From: Nitrospirota bacterium
GTDB lineage: Bacteria > Nitrospirota > Nitrospiria > SBBL01 > JAADHI01
Direction of reading: 5' to 3'
Assembly (NCBI GenBank): GCA_029261155.1
Contig: JAJDBW010000049.1
Location: 1 to 46,363, forward strand
DNA: 46,363 nt
Shown: piece after piece, positions 695 to 19,095 of the stretch
Layout: every line of letters begins with the position of its first letter
Position numbering within the stretch: position 1 is the stretch's first letter
Notes under the pieces: model-generated
Databases searched by the model: none
Seen by the model: the letters and a program-made list of their open reading frames with translations, nothing else
Told to the model about the DNA's origin: nothing
Program-made: the position numbers and the translations under genes

Positions 695-2758
695 GTGAGC
701 CCGTCTTTATTGAGCCATAATTTTTCTGCAAAACACTTTTCGAAGCTTCCCAAAATCCTGCAATTTATTGTCGTGTATGTCGGTAGCCTGACGGCTGTGT
801 TTGTGGCCTTGCGCTGGGTTTTCTGGATGGTATACGACGATGTGAAGGCGCCGCTTTCGACGCCCGATTTTATTCACGCGATGTGGCTGGGTTTTCGCTT
901 CGATCTTCGTATCGCCATTGCGACAATCTTGCCCCTGTTTTTTGTGGGGTGGATTAAGGGTCTAAATCCATTTCAATCCAAAATATCCCGGGCCTTTTGG
1001 CATGTCTATTTAACGCTTGTTTTCACGGTCATCGCCCTTTCTTACATCGTCGATTTCGGCCACTTTGCCTATTTGAATTCCCGACTCAATTTCACGGCTA
1101 GCCGCTTTTTGGAAAATGCAGCCATCTCTGCAAGCATGGTTTGGGAGAGCTATCCTGTCTTGTGGATTTTAGCGGCCTACATCGCTTCCGTCTGTCTGTT
1201 CGTCTGGTCCATTAATCGCTTGCACGCGTGGGTGTCGAAACAGCCTTCAATAAAATTAAAGGCGCGGCAGGGCGTGCTGGTGGGCCTCAGTTCTTTTTTG
1301 CTGGTCGCTTTGGGTGCGCACAGCAAGTTTTCGCAATACCCGCTGCGCTGGTCGGAGGCGGCCTTTAGTCAACACCCCTTCGCGGCACAGCTCAGCTATA
1401 ACCCGCTGCACTATTTTTTCGATACCTGGAAAAATGGCCGGATAAATTTCGATCTTGAGGCGACACGAAGCCACTACGAGGTGATGGCCGAATTCCTTGG
1501 CGTAAAAGATAAAGATCCTATGGCCTTAAACTACCAGCGCGACATCCCGGCCTCCAAAGGCATCGAGGGAAAACCGAACCTTGTCTTGATCTTGGTCGAG
1601 TCTTATGCCACGTATAAAACATCGCTCTCCGGCAATCCGCTCAATGCCACGCCCTTCACCCAGAAATTAGCCGATGAAGGCTATTATTTTAAAAACTTTT
1701 TTACCCCGTCCACCGGAACGGCGCGTTCGGTCTTTACCACCATCACCGGCATGCCCGATGTGGAGCTGCATGGCACCTCGAGCCGCAATCCCCTCGTCGT
1801 CGATCAGCACAGCATTATGAATCAGTTTGAGGGTTACGAGAAATACTATTTTATTGGGGGCTCGGCGTCCTGGGGAAATATTCGCGGGATCTTAACGAAA
1901 AACATCGAGAACCTCCATCTCTATGAAGAAGGCGATTACGGCTCGCCTCGCAACGATGTCTGGGGCATCTCCGATATCGATCTCTTTCGTGAGGCCCATG
2001 CGGTGTTGGAAAAAGAGACCAAGCCTTTTATCGCCGTCATTCAAACCTCCGGCAACCATCGGCCCTATACTATTCCGGAAGAGCGCTATGGTTTTGAGCT
2101 GAAACCTTTAAACAAGGAGAAGGCCCTGCGTTACGGTTTTCTTCATGAGGAGGATTACAACGCTTATCGCTTAGTCGATTATGCCATGGAACATTTTGTT
2201 GGCCTCAGCAAGAATGCGGGCTATGACAAAAACACAATCTTTGCCTTATGGGGCGATCATGGCAGTGACGGGTTTGCCGGCGAGCATGTCCCGAAAGGCG
2301 AGAGCGCGTCTTACCTCAACCTGGGATCCTACCGCGTTCCCTTCGTGATTTGGGCACCCGACTTGATTAAAATCCCAAAGGTTTTTGATACGGTGATGTC
2401 GGAGGTGGACGTCCTGCCGAGCCTTGCACGCTTGATCGGTCAGCCCTATACGGCCACGACCATGGGCCGCGATATCTTCGATGAACGCTATGTCGATAGG
2501 CGCTACGCCTTTACGATCGCCCATTCCAATCCGCCCCGTATTGGGATGGTCGGAGCGGACTATTATTTTCACATGCTTTCGGATGGCACGCAGGCCGGTT
2601 TGTATGATATACATAGTGACAAGCCACTGGAAGATCAGAGTCCAAAACATCCGGACTTGGCGCTACGATTAAAAAGCCTGTCTTTGGCCTACTACACAAC
2701 AAGCCAGTACATGCTCCACCATAATAAGCAAGCGCAGGTGAAACCGCCTAAATTTTAG
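695..2758 (+). CDS. LtaS/OpgB-like sulfatase-fold membrane phosphoglycerol (or phosphoethanolamine) transferase
   Basis: A 687-residue membrane enzyme. About five hydrophobic helices lie in residues 20-210 (roughly 20-45, 68-88, 103-122, 153-172 and 192-208), followed by a large extracytoplasmic sulfatase-type domain from about residue 294. Likely metal and nucleophile residues are Glu302 in LVESY, Thr342 in the GTARS loop and the Asp-His pair in ALWGDHG, matching the lipoteichoic acid synthase/OpgB arrangement. In a Gram-negative cell such enzymes move phosphoglycerol or phosphoethanolamine onto periplasmic glucans or lipids; the substrate here is unknown. The start is GTG 695, chosen because it keeps the N-terminal charged region before the first helix; TTG 710 is an alternative. 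A membrane-anchored phosphatase gene follows after 63 bp. Confidence 0.85.
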   Translation: MSPSLLSHNFSAKHFSKLPKILQFIVVYVGSLTAVFVALRWVFWMVYDDVKAPLSTPDFIHAMWLGFRFDLRIAIATILPLFFVGWIKGLNPFQSKISRAFWHVYLTLVFTVIALSYIVDFGHFAYLNSRLNFTASRFLENAAISASMVWESYPVLWILAAYIASVCLFVWSINRLHAWVSKQPSIKLKARQGVLVGLSSFLLVALGAHSKFSQYPLRWSEAAFSQHPFAAQLSYNPLHYFFDTWKNGRINFDLEATRSHYEVMAEFLGVKDKDPMALNYQRDIPASKGIEGKPNLVLILVESYATYKTSLSGNPLNATPFTQKLADEGYYFKNFFTPSTGTARSVFTTITGMPDVELHGTSSRNPLVVDQHSIMNQFEGYEKYYFIGGSASWGNIRGILTKNIENLHLYEEGDYGSPRNDVWGISDIDLFREAHAVLEKETKPFIAVIQTSGNHRPYTIPEERYGFELKPLNKEKALRYGFLHEEDYNAYRLVDYAMEHFVGLSKNAGYDKNTIFALWGDHGSDGFAGEHVPKGESASYLNLGSYRVPFVIWAPDLIKIPKVFDTVMSEVDVLPSLARLIGQPYTATTMGRDIFDERYVDRRYAFTIAHSNPPRIGMVGADYYFHMLSDGTQAGLYDIHSDKPLEDQSPKHPDLALRLKSLSLAYYTTSQYMLHHNKQAQVKPPKF

Positions 2759-2821
2759 GGCGATTGGTGCCCCTTTGATGATTGAGAGAAGTTCATAAAA
2801 AAAGCCGCAAAAATATTTCTA

Positions 2822-3436
2822 TTGGTCGCCGCGCTCTGGGGCATTCCCTACGTTTGGTGGGTCCATTTTAATTACCGTTTTGCCACCGTGGTCGAGAACA
2901 AGGTCTATAAGTCGGGGGCGATCCCGCCCGAGGAGATCGCCGATTACATTAACGAGCACAAGATCAAAACAGTTGTCGATTTAAGGCACCCTCAGCTCCA
3001 CGATGCCTTAAATCCTGCGAACCAGGATGACATTGATCGGGAAAAGGAAGCCATCGCAAAATTGCAGGGCGTCCGGCATATCAATATCCCCTCCGATCAA
3101 GTCCCCACCCAAGAAACCTTAGCGCGATTTTTTGAGGTGATGGACGATAAAATGGCCTATCCCGTACTGATCCACTGCGTGCACGGCACCGGCAGGGCGA
3201 TGATCTATTCCGCCTTGTATCGAATCGAATATGAAGGCTATTCGAATGAGGATGCAAGAGCAAAGACCCGGTTTGTCCTTTACAGAAGTAGCTTCGATAA
3301 AGGAAAAGGCAAAGGGGATTTTTTAATCAACTACAAGCCGAGAAAAGAAGGCCCCGAAAGCACTTTGAATGGGATGGATCTAAAAAAAATCGAATCGCTA
3401 AACCTTTTTAAGCCGATCTTGCACGTGTTCTCCTAA
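2822..3436 (+). CDS. membrane-anchored dual-specificity/tyrosine phosphatase-like protein
   Basis: The protein carries the Cys-X5-Arg phosphatase signature HCVHGTGRA and an upstream general-acid-type region (TVVDLRHP, then a conserved Asp in IPSDQ), as in small dual-specificity phosphatases. One hydrophobic segment at the N-terminus (VAALWGIPYVWWVHF) suggests an inner-membrane anchor. The TTG at 2822 is the first standard start, but it removes the positively charged lead-in. The frame stays open back to 2786 and reads IKKAAKIFL just upstream, beginning at an ATA codon (2795) that is preceded by GAGAGAAG. The real start may therefore be a rare ATA, or a mutated ATG. It lies downstream of the LtaS-like gene, so it may act on the same lipid or glycan pathway (inference). 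Confidence 0.7.
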   Translation: MVAALWGIPYVWWVHFNYRFATVVENKVYKSGAIPPEEIADYINEHKIKTVVDLRHPQLHDALNPANQDDIDREKEAIAKLQGVRHINIPSDQVPTQETLARFFEVMDDKMAYPVLIHCVHGTGRAMIYSALYRIEYEGYSNEDARAKTRFVLYRSSFDKGKGKGDFLINYKPRKEGPESTLNGMDLKKIESLNLFKPILHVFS

Positions 3437-3590
3437 AAAAACCGAAACCCTATTCCCCCCGGCCTGATCCCCCTTTCGACACGACACCCTTTCTTAAACA
3501 TCCAAAGAGAGGGCATTCATCCGCATCTCGATTCTCGGCATTGGGTTGAGGTTATGGGTCGGATTTCGTCGCTTGAGTATGAGATGCGCT

Positions 3591-16293: not shown

Positions 16294-16650
16294 TGAAAGG
16301 CGAAGAATCGAGAGCCTTTTGGGGCTGGAAGGGTTAAAAGGGGCGTTTTATTTTAAAAATATCCGCGTCACAGGCACCGAAAGTACCGGTGAAAGTGGAG
16401 GGGCGAAGCTGAACACTCGACGGAATGGATTGACAGAAAAGCATAAAATCAACTTGACCGGATGAATCGAGATAAGGCATATTTCGATTAAGTGAACCTG
16501 TCGATGACGGAATAAATCAGGGTGGTAGATTCTCGATGGGCTGAAGACGTTTTGAATTCCATTCGAATTTTTATCGGCCCGCATAATTGTTTACAGCGTA
16601 TTGGACAGGAATTCAGCAGCTTGTTAAAATAGGTGTCATAAAGAAAATTG
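16294..16650 (+). other. 357-bp gap between hipA and the hicA remnant
   Basis: No convincing gene, terminator or repeat is seen. Short open frames exist on both strands (for instance 16348-16584 minus), but none has a ribosome binding site or recognisable motif. It may be degraded coding DNA like the stretch that follows. Confidence 0.3.
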
Positions 16651-16839
16651 TTGAAAGTCAGGGATGTCATTAAAAACTAGAGGAAGAGGGTTGGTCCTTG
16701 TTAAGAACGCGAGGCAGTCATCGGCAGTAAGCACCCTATAAAGAAAGGTCTTGTAACGGTATCGGGCAAGCCGGGAGACGATTTGGCACGCGGAACCCTG
16801 AATAGCGTCTTAAAACAAGCCGGATTAAAGAAAGGATGA
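16651..16839 (+). pseudogene. hicA: hicA toxin pseudogene with two frame-cancelling deletions
   Basis: Three reading frames must be joined to read a HicA mRNA interferase. KVRDVIK from 16654 is followed by the loss of one base before CTA 16677. The next segment, LEEEGWSLLRTRGSHRQ, has the HicA core with the catalytic-type His. Two bases of a tyrosine codon are then lost at 16728. The frame finally returns to its original phase with KHPIKKGLVTVSGKP and GTLNSVLKQAGLKKG, ending TGA 16837-16839. The total loss is three bases, but stops at 16678 (TAG) and 16728 (TAA) block every frame. The start would be TTG 16651, possibly a decayed ATG. The ancestral hicA stop overlapped the hicB ATG by ATGA. 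The toxin is almost certainly dead. Confidence 0.85.
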
Positions 16840-17054
16840 ACATGCAATACTTGATTGTCATCGAGAAGATAAAGACGGGCTACTCCTCATACTCGCCCGC
16901 CCTGAGCGGTTGCGTGGCGACCGGGAAGACACGGGAGGAGGTAGAGCGAAGGATGCGCGAAGCGATTGCCTTTCACATTGAAGGCTTGCGACAGGAAAAC
17001 TACGCCGTTCCAGGACCGCAATCCTATTCGACTTACATCGATGTAGCTGTGTAA
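16836..17054 (+). CDS. hicB: HicB-like antitoxin (orphan)
   Basis: 72 residues of the HicB partial-RNase H fold: YLIVIEKIKTGYSSYSPALS, then GCVATGKTREEVERRMREAI and FHIEGLRQENYAVPGP. No C-terminal DNA-binding domain is present, which is usual for short HicB proteins. Its ATG overlaps the stop of the hicA remnant. The frame is undamaged although its cognate toxin gene carries two deletions. It could act as a solitary antidote against related HicA toxins, or simply be younger in its decay. Confidence 0.85.
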   Translation: MNMQYLIVIEKIKTGYSSYSPALSGCVATGKTREEVERRMREAIAFHIEGLRQENYAVPGPQSYSTYIDVAV

Positions 17055-17090
17055 GAACCCTTCTCTCCTCGCAATCTTGTTATTTCCGTA

Positions 17091-17312
17091 GTGCCCGTGA
17101 TGTGCGCCACAACGATTTTCGACCTCTACAATAGCCGCGATTTTTTAAGCGCGGCCGACGTGCCGATCTTTCTCGTCGGCTTTGTTGTCTCCTTCATTTC
17201 CGCCTAGTTCGCTGTCAAATTCTTCCTCCGCCTCATCAGCACCCACACCCTTGAAGCCTTCGGCTGGTACCGGGTGGCGATGGCCGTGGCGATTCTGGCG
17301 TTCATGTTGTGA
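17091..17312 (+). pseudogene. uppP: 3' remnant of undecaprenyl-diphosphatase gene
   Basis: The 73 codons from 17091 to the TGA at 17310 read like the last two or three membrane helices of UppP/BacA: VPIFLVGFVVSFISA, then FAVKFFLRLISTHTLEAFGW and YRVAMAVAILAFML. There is an internal TAG at 17205-17207 exactly where a Leu or similar is expected. The N-terminal two thirds, with the catalytic Glu-rich and Arg motifs, are absent. The fragment begins abruptly after hicB. A functional copy should exist elsewhere because the enzyme recycles the essential lipid carrier. This looks like a scar of recombination or insertion that replaced the 5' part. Confidence 0.75.
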
Positions 17313-17323
17313 ATTCAGTACAG

Positions 17324-17920
17324 CTATAATCGATTTTCTAACTGCTGTTCAACTTTCTTGAATCTCTTATCAAGAATTTCTTTAAGTATTTTGAAATTAT
17401 TTTTTGTAATTGTAGAAGTATCAGAAATGATTTTGGTCCTTATTTCCTTGCTCTCAAAGTATAAAGAAGAGATTACTCTTTCGTAGGTCGAATCTTCTGG
17501 TAGCCCTATTTTTTTTCTTATATCATCCAAGTCTTTTGAAGTGATCATGCCTTCCATTCGTCGTTTGTTGTTACTTAAAAGAGGGAGTAAATCAAAACGG
17601 ATTGATTCATGTTCTCCAAATAGTTGCGATGCTTTTTTCTTTGCAGAAACACCTTCTTTATCATTGTCCCAAATTGCAATGTAGTTTATCCCAAAAGCAT
17701 TCAGGAATTGAATGTTTTTAATGATTGAAGCAGCGCTAGTGCCTGGGAATAATGTGTAGTCAGTCGATAACTCAAAAAAAAGCTCTATAGCATATTTATC
17801 ATAAATACCTTCGACTAGGATTACTTTATCAGCGTTCTTTATAACCTCAAAAATTGGAACCTGAAGCGCTTCATAAACTGGCTGTAAAGCACTGTTAGAT
17901 TCCGCCTTGCCTTTATACAA
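17324..17920 (-). CDS. TOPRIM nuclease part of a split OLD-family protein
   Basis: 198 residues, listed from TTG 17920, with the TOPRIM motifs ILVEGIYDKYAIELFF (catalytic Glu37) and AIWDNDKEG (Asp85 and Asp87). This is the nuclease half of OLD (overcoming lysogenization defect) family proteins, normally fused to the C-terminus of the ATPase in the gene just upstream. The frame is open upstream through SITPLPLYKG to a stop within the A11 tract, and there is no credible independent start or ribosome binding site. It is therefore probably not translated alone unless a slippage product restores the fusion. The DNA is markedly AT-rich compared with flanking genes, suggesting horizontal origin. Confidence 0.75.
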   Translation of the reverse strand: MYKGKAESNSALQPVYEALQVPIFEVIKNADKVILVEGIYDKYAIELFFELSTDYTLFPGTSAASIIKNIQFLNAFGINYIAIWDNDKEGVSAKKKASQLFGEHESIRFDLLPLLSNNKRRMEGMITSKDLDDIRKKIGLPEDSTYERVISSLYFESKEIRTKIISDTSTITKNNFKILKEILDKRFKKVEQQLENRL

Positions 17921-17931
17921 AGGCAGAGGTG

Positions 17932-19095
17932 TTATAGAGATGTTTTTACTTTGTTTTTTTTTTTAATAATATATATTTTGTTAAGTGGGATATAGGTTGG
18001 ATTAAGAAGGTGATGGGAGTGAGTGCAGAAAATAACTTTCCCATGTTTCTCTGAAATAATCTTTAACTTTGCGCATAGTTTCTCCTGGGCAGATGCGTGC
18101 AAATATGAACCTGGTTCATCAAGTAAATATATTGTCTCTTTTTTATTGCCGCTAATTTTAGGATTAAACTCTAATTTCATTACGAAATTAAAAAACCACA
18201 AAAAGCCTTTGCTTCGGTCAGCAACATCGAAATATCTATCTTTCTTTTTGATCTTCTCAATAATATTTATCTCAAGTCTATTGCTGAATTTCTCCTTGTT
18301 TTCACCGTCATTTGGAACTATGCGAAGGCTTACCTTTAATGTGCTATGGTTGTCGAGCGAAAAGGTACGCCATGCTTTCAATAGAGTCGTGTTTAGAACT
18401 TCTTGAACATCGGAGATAATAGAGTCCCTTCTCCTGCTTTCTGGTTCATTTATGATTGAAAATAGGGAGTATGAAGAGTCTGTGACGTTGAATAGCCTTT
18501 CATAGATTGAAAGCCAACCAGATACGCTGTTAGGGGTTAGATTGGGAATTTCAACAGAGGTTGGGGGTCTATCATTGAAATCATCATTATAGAGAATGTA
18601 AGGCAATTGACTAATAACTGAATAAGAAAACCTATCTTGGGATACGATTGTTTCTTGGTCAAAATGCGCAACATTATATTTTCTCGTTTTGACATCTCTT
18701 GTAACCTCAATAAATCCTGGAAAATCAGTTGAACTAAATGGAATCTTAATAGGAACAAAAGCCTCTTCTTCCTCCTGTTCATCTCCTTCGGTTTTAAGGC
18801 CTTCTTCGTTGTACTCTTCAATTAATTTTTTTAGGTTTGTATAACTTAACTCAATGATCGCTGTAATCTTAGGGTTTTCGTCACTAGTGTGATACAAGTT
18901 CAAGAAATTTTTCAGATGATTTCCATGGTATTGTCTATCATTAAAATAATCGAAGCAAAAAATTGCCTGTAAAATTGTTGTCTCATCCCACTCGTTTATG
19001 CCAACGAGTGGGATGAGAGCATTGTTCTTCACATCAATTTGAATGAGCTTTTTGATGGCTCTGTAGTTTTTAATTTTAAATTTTATATATCTCAT
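17932..19095 (-). CDS. OLD-family ATPase part, damaged Walker A, frameshifted from its TOPRIM domain
   Basis: 387 residues of an ABC-type/SMC-like ATPase (RYIKFKIKNYRAIKKLIQID at the N-terminus). The Walker A position reads VGINEWDETTILQAI (residues 31-45) where the family has GIN-E-x-G-K-T-T, so the Gly-Lys needed for nucleotide binding is replaced by Asp-Glu. Walker B ETIYLLDEPGSYLH and the H-loop FCTHSHHLL remain. The frame ends KKKNKVKTSL at TAA 17934-17932, just after an A11 run; adding one A, or removing two, would join it to the TOPRIM frame. OLD proteins are ATP-dependent nucleases, and several act against phages. Two independent lesions point to a decayed gene. It is AT-rich and probably acquired. 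Confidence 0.75.
   Translation of the reverse strand: MRYIKFKIKNYRAIKKLIQIDVKNNALIPLVGINEWDETTILQAIFCFDYFNDRQYHGNHLKNFLNLYHTSDENPKITAIIELSYTNLKKLIEEYNEEGLKTEGDEQEEEEAFVPIKIPFSSTDFPGFIEVTRDVKTRKYNVAHFDQETIVSQDRFSYSVISQLPYILYNDDFNDRPPTSVEIPNLTPNSVSGWLSIYERLFNVTDSSYSLFSIINEPESRRRDSIISDVQEVLNTTLLKAWRTFSLDNHSTLKVSLRIVPNDGENKEKFSNRLEINIIEKIKKKDRYFDVADRSKGFLWFFNFVMKLEFNPKISGNKKETIYLLDEPGSYLHASAQEKLCAKLKIISEKHGKVIFCTHSHHLLNPTYIPLNKIYIIKKKNKVKTSL
17954..17964 (-). repeat. A11 homopolymer at the ATPase/TOPRIM frame break
   Basis: Eleven consecutive T on the plus strand (A11 in the coding sense). One extra A, or two fewer, would fuse the OLD ATPase and TOPRIM frames without a stop. The run could be a mutation, a slippery site or a base-calling error. 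Confidence 0.85.
18981..19018. repeat. 16-bp perfect inverted repeat over the Walker A codons
   Basis: TCTCATCCCACTCGTT (18981-18996), a six-base loop and AACGAGTGGGATGAGA (19003-19018). In the gene it spans residues 27-39, and the second arm spells the abnormal Trp-Asp-Glu of the P-loop. The inner six pairs are explained by the expected P-loop codons; the outer nine or ten replace them. Confidence 0.95.

Follow-up and report, generated by a model that had tools for sequence, protein, structure and literature searches.

In a wild Nitrospirota bacterium, a gene for an OLD-like ATPase reads Trp-Asp-Glu in its Walker A motif in place of Cys/Ser-Gly-Lys, and these three codons are part of one arm of a perfect 16-bp hairpin. 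A single template switch during replication, of the kind termed quasipalindrome correction, very probably created this hairpin and thereby removed the Walker A motif from what is now most likely a young pseudogene. The features on which our argument relies are listed below with their positions in the window, that is, the whole stretch of 46,363 nucleotides that was analyzed.

17324 to 17962, minus strand: TOPRIM part, derived from the same ancestral gene as the ATPase part but in another reading frame (Pfam OLD-like_TOPRIM, 33.2 bits); it aligns to the C-termini of the homologues.

17932 to 19095, minus strand: open reading frame of an OLD-like ATPase domain, 387 amino acids, with a broken Walker A (Pfam AAA_15, 49.2 bits, and AAA_21; PADLOC AriA/Old/GajA-like; 18 homologues).

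17954 to 17964, minus strand: run of 11 A that interrupts the frame; with respect to the homologues, the shift is +2 or -1.

18981 to 18996, no strand assigned: arm presumed to be overwritten; coding strand AACGAGTGGGATGAGA, Asn-Glu-Trp-Asp-Glu(-Thr).

18982 to 18990, minus strand: codons 36 to 38, TGG GAT GAG (W-D-E), replacing Cys/Ser-Gly-Lys; the minimum converted tract is 18984 to 18988.

18997 to 19002, no strand assigned: hairpin loop of 6 nt; coding strand GGCATA, Gly-Ile, not inverted.

19003 to 19018, no strand assigned: presumed template arm; coding strand TCTCATCCCACTCGTT, (part of Ala-)Leu-Ile-Pro-Leu-Val, matching the family consensus.

The two inverted arms, TCTCATCCCACTCGTT and AACGAGTGGGATGAGA, are complementary over their full length (18981-18996 and 19003-19018; 100%) and are separated by six nucleotides; as single-stranded DNA, the site has a folding energy of -18.4 kcal/mol (z = -9.6). 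On the coding strand, the region reads GCT CTC ATC CCA CTC GTT GGC ATA AAC GAG TGG GAT GAG ACA ACA and is translated as A-L-I-P-L-V-G-I-N-E-W-D-E-T-T, the P-loop being G-I-N-E-W-D-E-T-T. The upstream codons CTC ATC CCA (L-I-P), read as reverse complement, give TGG GAT GAG in 9 of 9 bases, while the Gly-Ile residues encoded by the loop (GGC ATA) are those of the family. The original prediction had described a perfect 16-bp palindrome with a six-base loop at 18981-19018, a Walker A reading Trp-Asp-Glu-Thr in an OLD-type ATPase, and new bases that are the reverse complement of the Leu-Ile-Pro codons; each of these observations is borne out, the identity of the ATPase by a minus-strand open reading frame with matches to AAA_15 and AAA_21.

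A scan of species-representative genomes yielded 17 loci with a homologue of this gene, their best segments being 39-56% identical, and one more (L028, 45% identity) came from searching 396 genomes of the phylum; as L019 and L028 are identical where they could be compared, these 18 sequences amount to about 17 independent homologues. Most of them are 37-56% identical to the window gene, L027 being 38% identical over its N-terminal part. All 18 carry the motif G-x-N-E-[C/S]-G-K-T-[T/S], with Cys preceding the Walker A Gly in the four closest homologues, and none has Trp-Asp-Glu at this site. This is in keeping with the original prediction, which had expected GIN-E-x-GKTT along with a short inner repeat in the relatives and had named homologues sharing Trp-Asp-Glu as the finding that would speak against it. 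The three codons ahead of the loop pair with the three motif codons at 2-5 of nine bases in the 18 homologues, as opposed to 9 of 9 here, and the best stems near the equivalent site are 4-9 bp long, as opposed to 16 bp. In the closest homologue, L011 (CCA CTC GTC GGT ATA AAC GAG TGC GGG AAA), only an inner stem of 7 bp, CACTCGT/ACGAGTG (CCACTCGT...ACGAGTGC), is found at the same place as the window hairpin. The short stem of L011 agrees with the pre-existing inner repeat CTCGTT/AACGAG that had been postulated, but this repeat was probably 8 bp rather than 6 bp long if the ancestral residue was Cys (CACTCGTT/AACGAGTG).

Searches at the level of genus, family and order gave no copy of the gene, L028 being the one good homologue in the 396 genomes of the phylum; the viral contigs searched gave none either, and the 26 records obtained in a plasmid search all had less than 60% identity. 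Since the searched sets hold no copy from the same species or genus, the immediate ancestor has to be reconstructed from homologues whose identity does not exceed 56%. In the same-genus genome, the contig carries only leuS-lptE-holA of the neighborhood. Among approximately 87 alignment columns that are kept in at least 17 of the 18 homologues, five are changed in the window sequence (its two frames joined with an X): those of the Gly and Lys in the Walker A, the column of the frameshift, and two conservative replacements (Ile to Val and Tyr to Phe). With so few near-invariant columns changed, the alignment points to a concentrated event and not to diffuse drift.

These data lend themselves to the following mechanistic model. 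The ancestor would have been a Class 1-like OLD protein that united an ABC-type ATPase and a TOPRIM nuclease in one chain and had the Walker A region L-I-P-L-V-G-I-N-E-C-G-K-T-T, and its gene would have contained the short inverted repeat CACTCGTT...AACGAGTG, an 8-bp inner stem provided that the ancestral residue was Cys. While this DNA was being replicated, the growing strand, extended through AACGAGTG, may have folded back onto CACTCGTT or paired with the sister strand, and would have used the opposite arm as its template for about 5-7 nt (the complement of CTC ATC CCA; at least 18984-18988, and up to 18981) before resuming synthesis on its proper template in register. One such event would have converted Cys-Gly-Lys into Trp-Asp-Glu and would at the same time have completed the perfect 16-bp hairpin. 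As the loop GGC ATA is not inverted, the spacer was not flipped. The changes are length-neutral, lie within a tract of 5-7 nt beside the pre-existing inverted repeat, and without exception match the opposite arm, as quasipalindrome correction predicts; a perfect inverted repeat is present here and shorter stems are present in the relatives. Together with the intact motif of the homologues, these observations support the template switch that had been proposed at the outset. As for the accompanying claim that the nucleotide site was destroyed in one event, both invariant residues are indeed replaced, but we infer, and do not observe, that this took a single event, that it took place in vivo, and that ATP is no longer bound.

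Template-switch mutation is known from phage T4, and quasipalindrome correction, the Ripley model, has the E. coli thyA reporter and yeast UTP5 among its known cases. The mutational process is therefore already known, and the window provides an instance of it, not a new kind of event. Quasipalindrome reporters of E. coli (lacZ QP5/QP6) demonstrate the mechanism in bacteria (PMC7202029; PMC6357072), and in the yeast REG2 gene, arms of 5 bp grew to 16 bp through template switching, several amino acids being replaced in the process (PMC8604942). As in these reporter and yeast cases, an imperfect repeat appears to have been perfected in the window by copying one arm, and the changes are clustered and length-neutral. 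Unlike those cases, which rest on parent and mutant strains, the event discussed here is deduced, for a wild bacterium, from homologues that are only distantly related, and it struck the Walker A of a defense-type ATPase, where both the invariant Gly and the invariant Lys were changed.

The lesion in the Walker A is not the only one. Walker B (LLDEPGSYLH) and the H-loop (THSH) are present in the window open reading frame, and the TOPRIM motifs EG and WDND are present as well, but out of frame with the ATPase part. The break coincides with a run of 11 A, the longest homopolymer of the window, where every homologue has at most seven. A single open reading frame of 552-606 amino acids is found in 17 of the 18 homologues, the exception being L027, whose frame is itself broken. 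In this locus (2456-3564; uncultured proteobacterium RUG14145), the frame stops at 217 amino acids while the similarity continues to residue 378, so that it represents a second broken member of the family. Members of the OLD family combine an ATPase with Walker A, Walker B and H-loop with a TOPRIM domain in the same polypeptide; with the Gly and Lys of its Walker A replaced and its TOPRIM in another frame, the window copy is probably a damaged descendant of this family and no longer a working member.

As in Class 1 OLD systems, the gene is solitary and lacks the UvrD-like helicase of Class 2 and the retron reverse transcriptase of Class 3; neither a GajB-type nor a UvrD-type helicase nor a reverse transcriptase was identified among the tested neighbors of the window gene and its homologues. 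The best solved-structure match of the intact homologues is the OLD protein of Thermus scotoductus (6p74; 36 bits), and in conjunction with the lack of a helicase or reverse transcriptase among the neighbors scanned this marks them as Class 1-like OLD proteins. Like the Class 1 nucleases (T. scotoductus OLD, PDB 6P74; P2 Old; E. coli YbjD), the homologues are stand-alone proteins consisting of an ABC ATPase and a TOPRIM domain. The family has nevertheless diverged from them and also resembles the ATPase profiles of PARIS AriA, its intact members matching both the Old and the AriA profiles of PADLOC. The window copy differs from the Class 1 nucleases in that it has no Walker A and in that its TOPRIM is out of frame. 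The ATPase profiles of Gabija GajA (Class 2 OLD) and PARIS AriA are related to the window gene, but in contrast to those systems, neither a GajB helicase nor an AriB partner was found adjoining it.

The OLD-like gene resides in a low-GC stretch (34-36% versus approximately 50%). Its neighbors are HipBA, HicAB-like, PIN and MazE-like genes and a remnant of uppP. In the HicAB-like pair (about 16610-17054, plus strand), the hicA frame is broken and the hicB-like partner is open. The uppP/BacA remnant (undecaprenyl-diphosphatase, PF02673; 17085-17288, plus strand) is C-terminal, lacks the first 190 profile positions and contains an in-frame TAG; an intact uppP is present on contig C90. Farther out, hipBA, the PIN/MazE-like pair and leuS are open frames. 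The original prediction had overlooked these broken neighbors, as it had the A11 frameshift that cuts off the TOPRIM part. Between 14313 and 20000, a tRNA-Cys is followed by the HipBA, HicAB-like, OLD and PIN/MazE-like genes, with a drop in GC content; this region looks like a small toxin-antitoxin/defense island beside a tRNA.

Foremost among the alternatives is an artefact: fold-back copying during amplification or library preparation, or an error of the assembler, might have written the palindrome into a gene whose Walker A is normal in the cell, with the A11 run being a homopolymer error. The genome is a draft of 90 contigs, the longest homopolymer of the window is a typical site of error, nearly all other invariant residues are intact, and the two lesions of the gene and the adjoining broken frames lie within 2.5 kb, as might result from a locally poor assembly. 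Fold-back chimeras, however, rarely rejoin the original template in register without a change in length, and such a molecule would additionally have to win the consensus. Intact long genes nearby (leuS, hipA, a gcvP-type gene and a kinase gene) speak against a poor assembly overall, and the uppP remnant, with its in-frame TAG and missing first 190 positions, cannot be explained as a simple sequencing slip, which argues that this stretch is really decaying. The surroundings thus resemble an insertion in decay more than an assembly of poor quality throughout, and we regard an artefact as unlikely.

With the template switch as the favored origin of the hairpin, the most likely status of the gene is that of a young pseudogene within a low-GC patch undergoing decay, since nearly all other family-invariant residues persist although the Walker A is gone and the A11 frameshift severs the TOPRIM. 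Because of this second lesion, the template switch, which may have come before or after it, need not have been what killed the gene. Judged from what is known of the family, a protein deprived of both the Gly and the Lys of its Walker A should no longer bind nucleotides. The K37A substitution in P2 Old abolished in vivo activity, and all Walker A, Walker B and TOPRIM mutants of P2 Old that were tested were inactive (PMC7049728). In E. coli YbjD, on the other hand, the Walker A variant K35A kept its anti-phage phenotypes and had raised toxicity, and a construct without TOPRIM (residues 1-377) kept them as well, TOPRIM thus being dispensable (PMC13261556). Death of the gene is consequently likely, given its two lesions and decayed neighbors, but not certain, given the activity of these YbjD mutants.

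The same data bear on the view that Trp-Asp-Glu is a variant with a real function, in which case the gene would belong to an OLD subfamily able to work without binding nucleotides, perhaps with proteins that consist of the ATPase domain only. The YbjD mutants would provide a precedent, the window open reading frame being 387 amino acids long and otherwise conserved, and transcriptional slippage at runs of at least 9 A can restore the frame (PMC1088944). The A11 lesion may hence be leaky, long A runs being partly read through in this manner, a remedy that is not available for the Walker A change; slippage at 17954-17964 (minus strand) could also render the frame break phase-variable. But the variant is shared by no homologue, the P2 Old mutants all lost activity, and the neighboring genes are decayed, so that a functional variant is quite improbable. 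Slightly less probable still would be a combination of both ideas, in which the product of the template switch, an OLD protein blind to nucleotides and devoid of TOPRIM, would still be synthesized and active, with A11 slippage restoring some full-length chain.

Ordinary point mutations might also have completed the palindrome by chance in a dead gene, whose constraint may have been relaxed in view of the A11 frameshift and the broken neighbors. Starting from Cys-Gly-Lys, three to five substitutions are needed to arrive at Trp-Asp-Glu, and every one of them matches the opposite arm. The probability of this outcome is about 4e-4 for three random changes confined to the nine bases and below 1e-4 for four or five; hence, at least three changes within 5 nt that all match the other arm, with almost every other invariant column unchanged, make an origin by chance highly improbable. 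When the gene was shuffled, a stem longer than 13 bp arose in none of 1,500 synonymous-codon and none of 1,500 codon-order shuffles, whereas the real gene has one of 16 bp. In a census of 383 kb of the same genome (the window and 20 other stretches), the hairpin was the only perfect stem of at least 12 bp found inside a coding gene, all others lying outside genes. The one other long stem to overlap an open frame, a 14-bp stem in L053, lies in a frame of 181 codons without any match in Pfam and just beyond the end of the probable coding gene; the short gene upstream of it (approximately 17000-17430) contains an apparent in-frame stop. Least credible of all is the idea that the hairpin is a selected element (a terminator, a regulatory site, or an end of a recombination or mobile element) with the Walker A loss as a side effect: despite its strength and a terminator-like signal, albeit weak, that a pattern scan flags on the plus strand, it has no proper T tract on either strand, occurs as a single copy in the genome, matches no Rfam family, lies mid-gene (about codons 27-39) in conserved family sequence, and is absent as a 16-bp structure from the 18 distant homologues.

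Template-switch mutations have been well studied in reporters and yeast lineages. The OLD-like gene described here offers a readable and seemingly recent case from a wild bacterium in which the donor arm, the target arm and the unchanged loop are all visible. It illustrates that a single error of replication is enough to eliminate the two invariant residues of a nucleotide-binding loop, and it warns against reading a cluster of changes within a catalytic motif as stepwise evolution or as a new variant of the motif.
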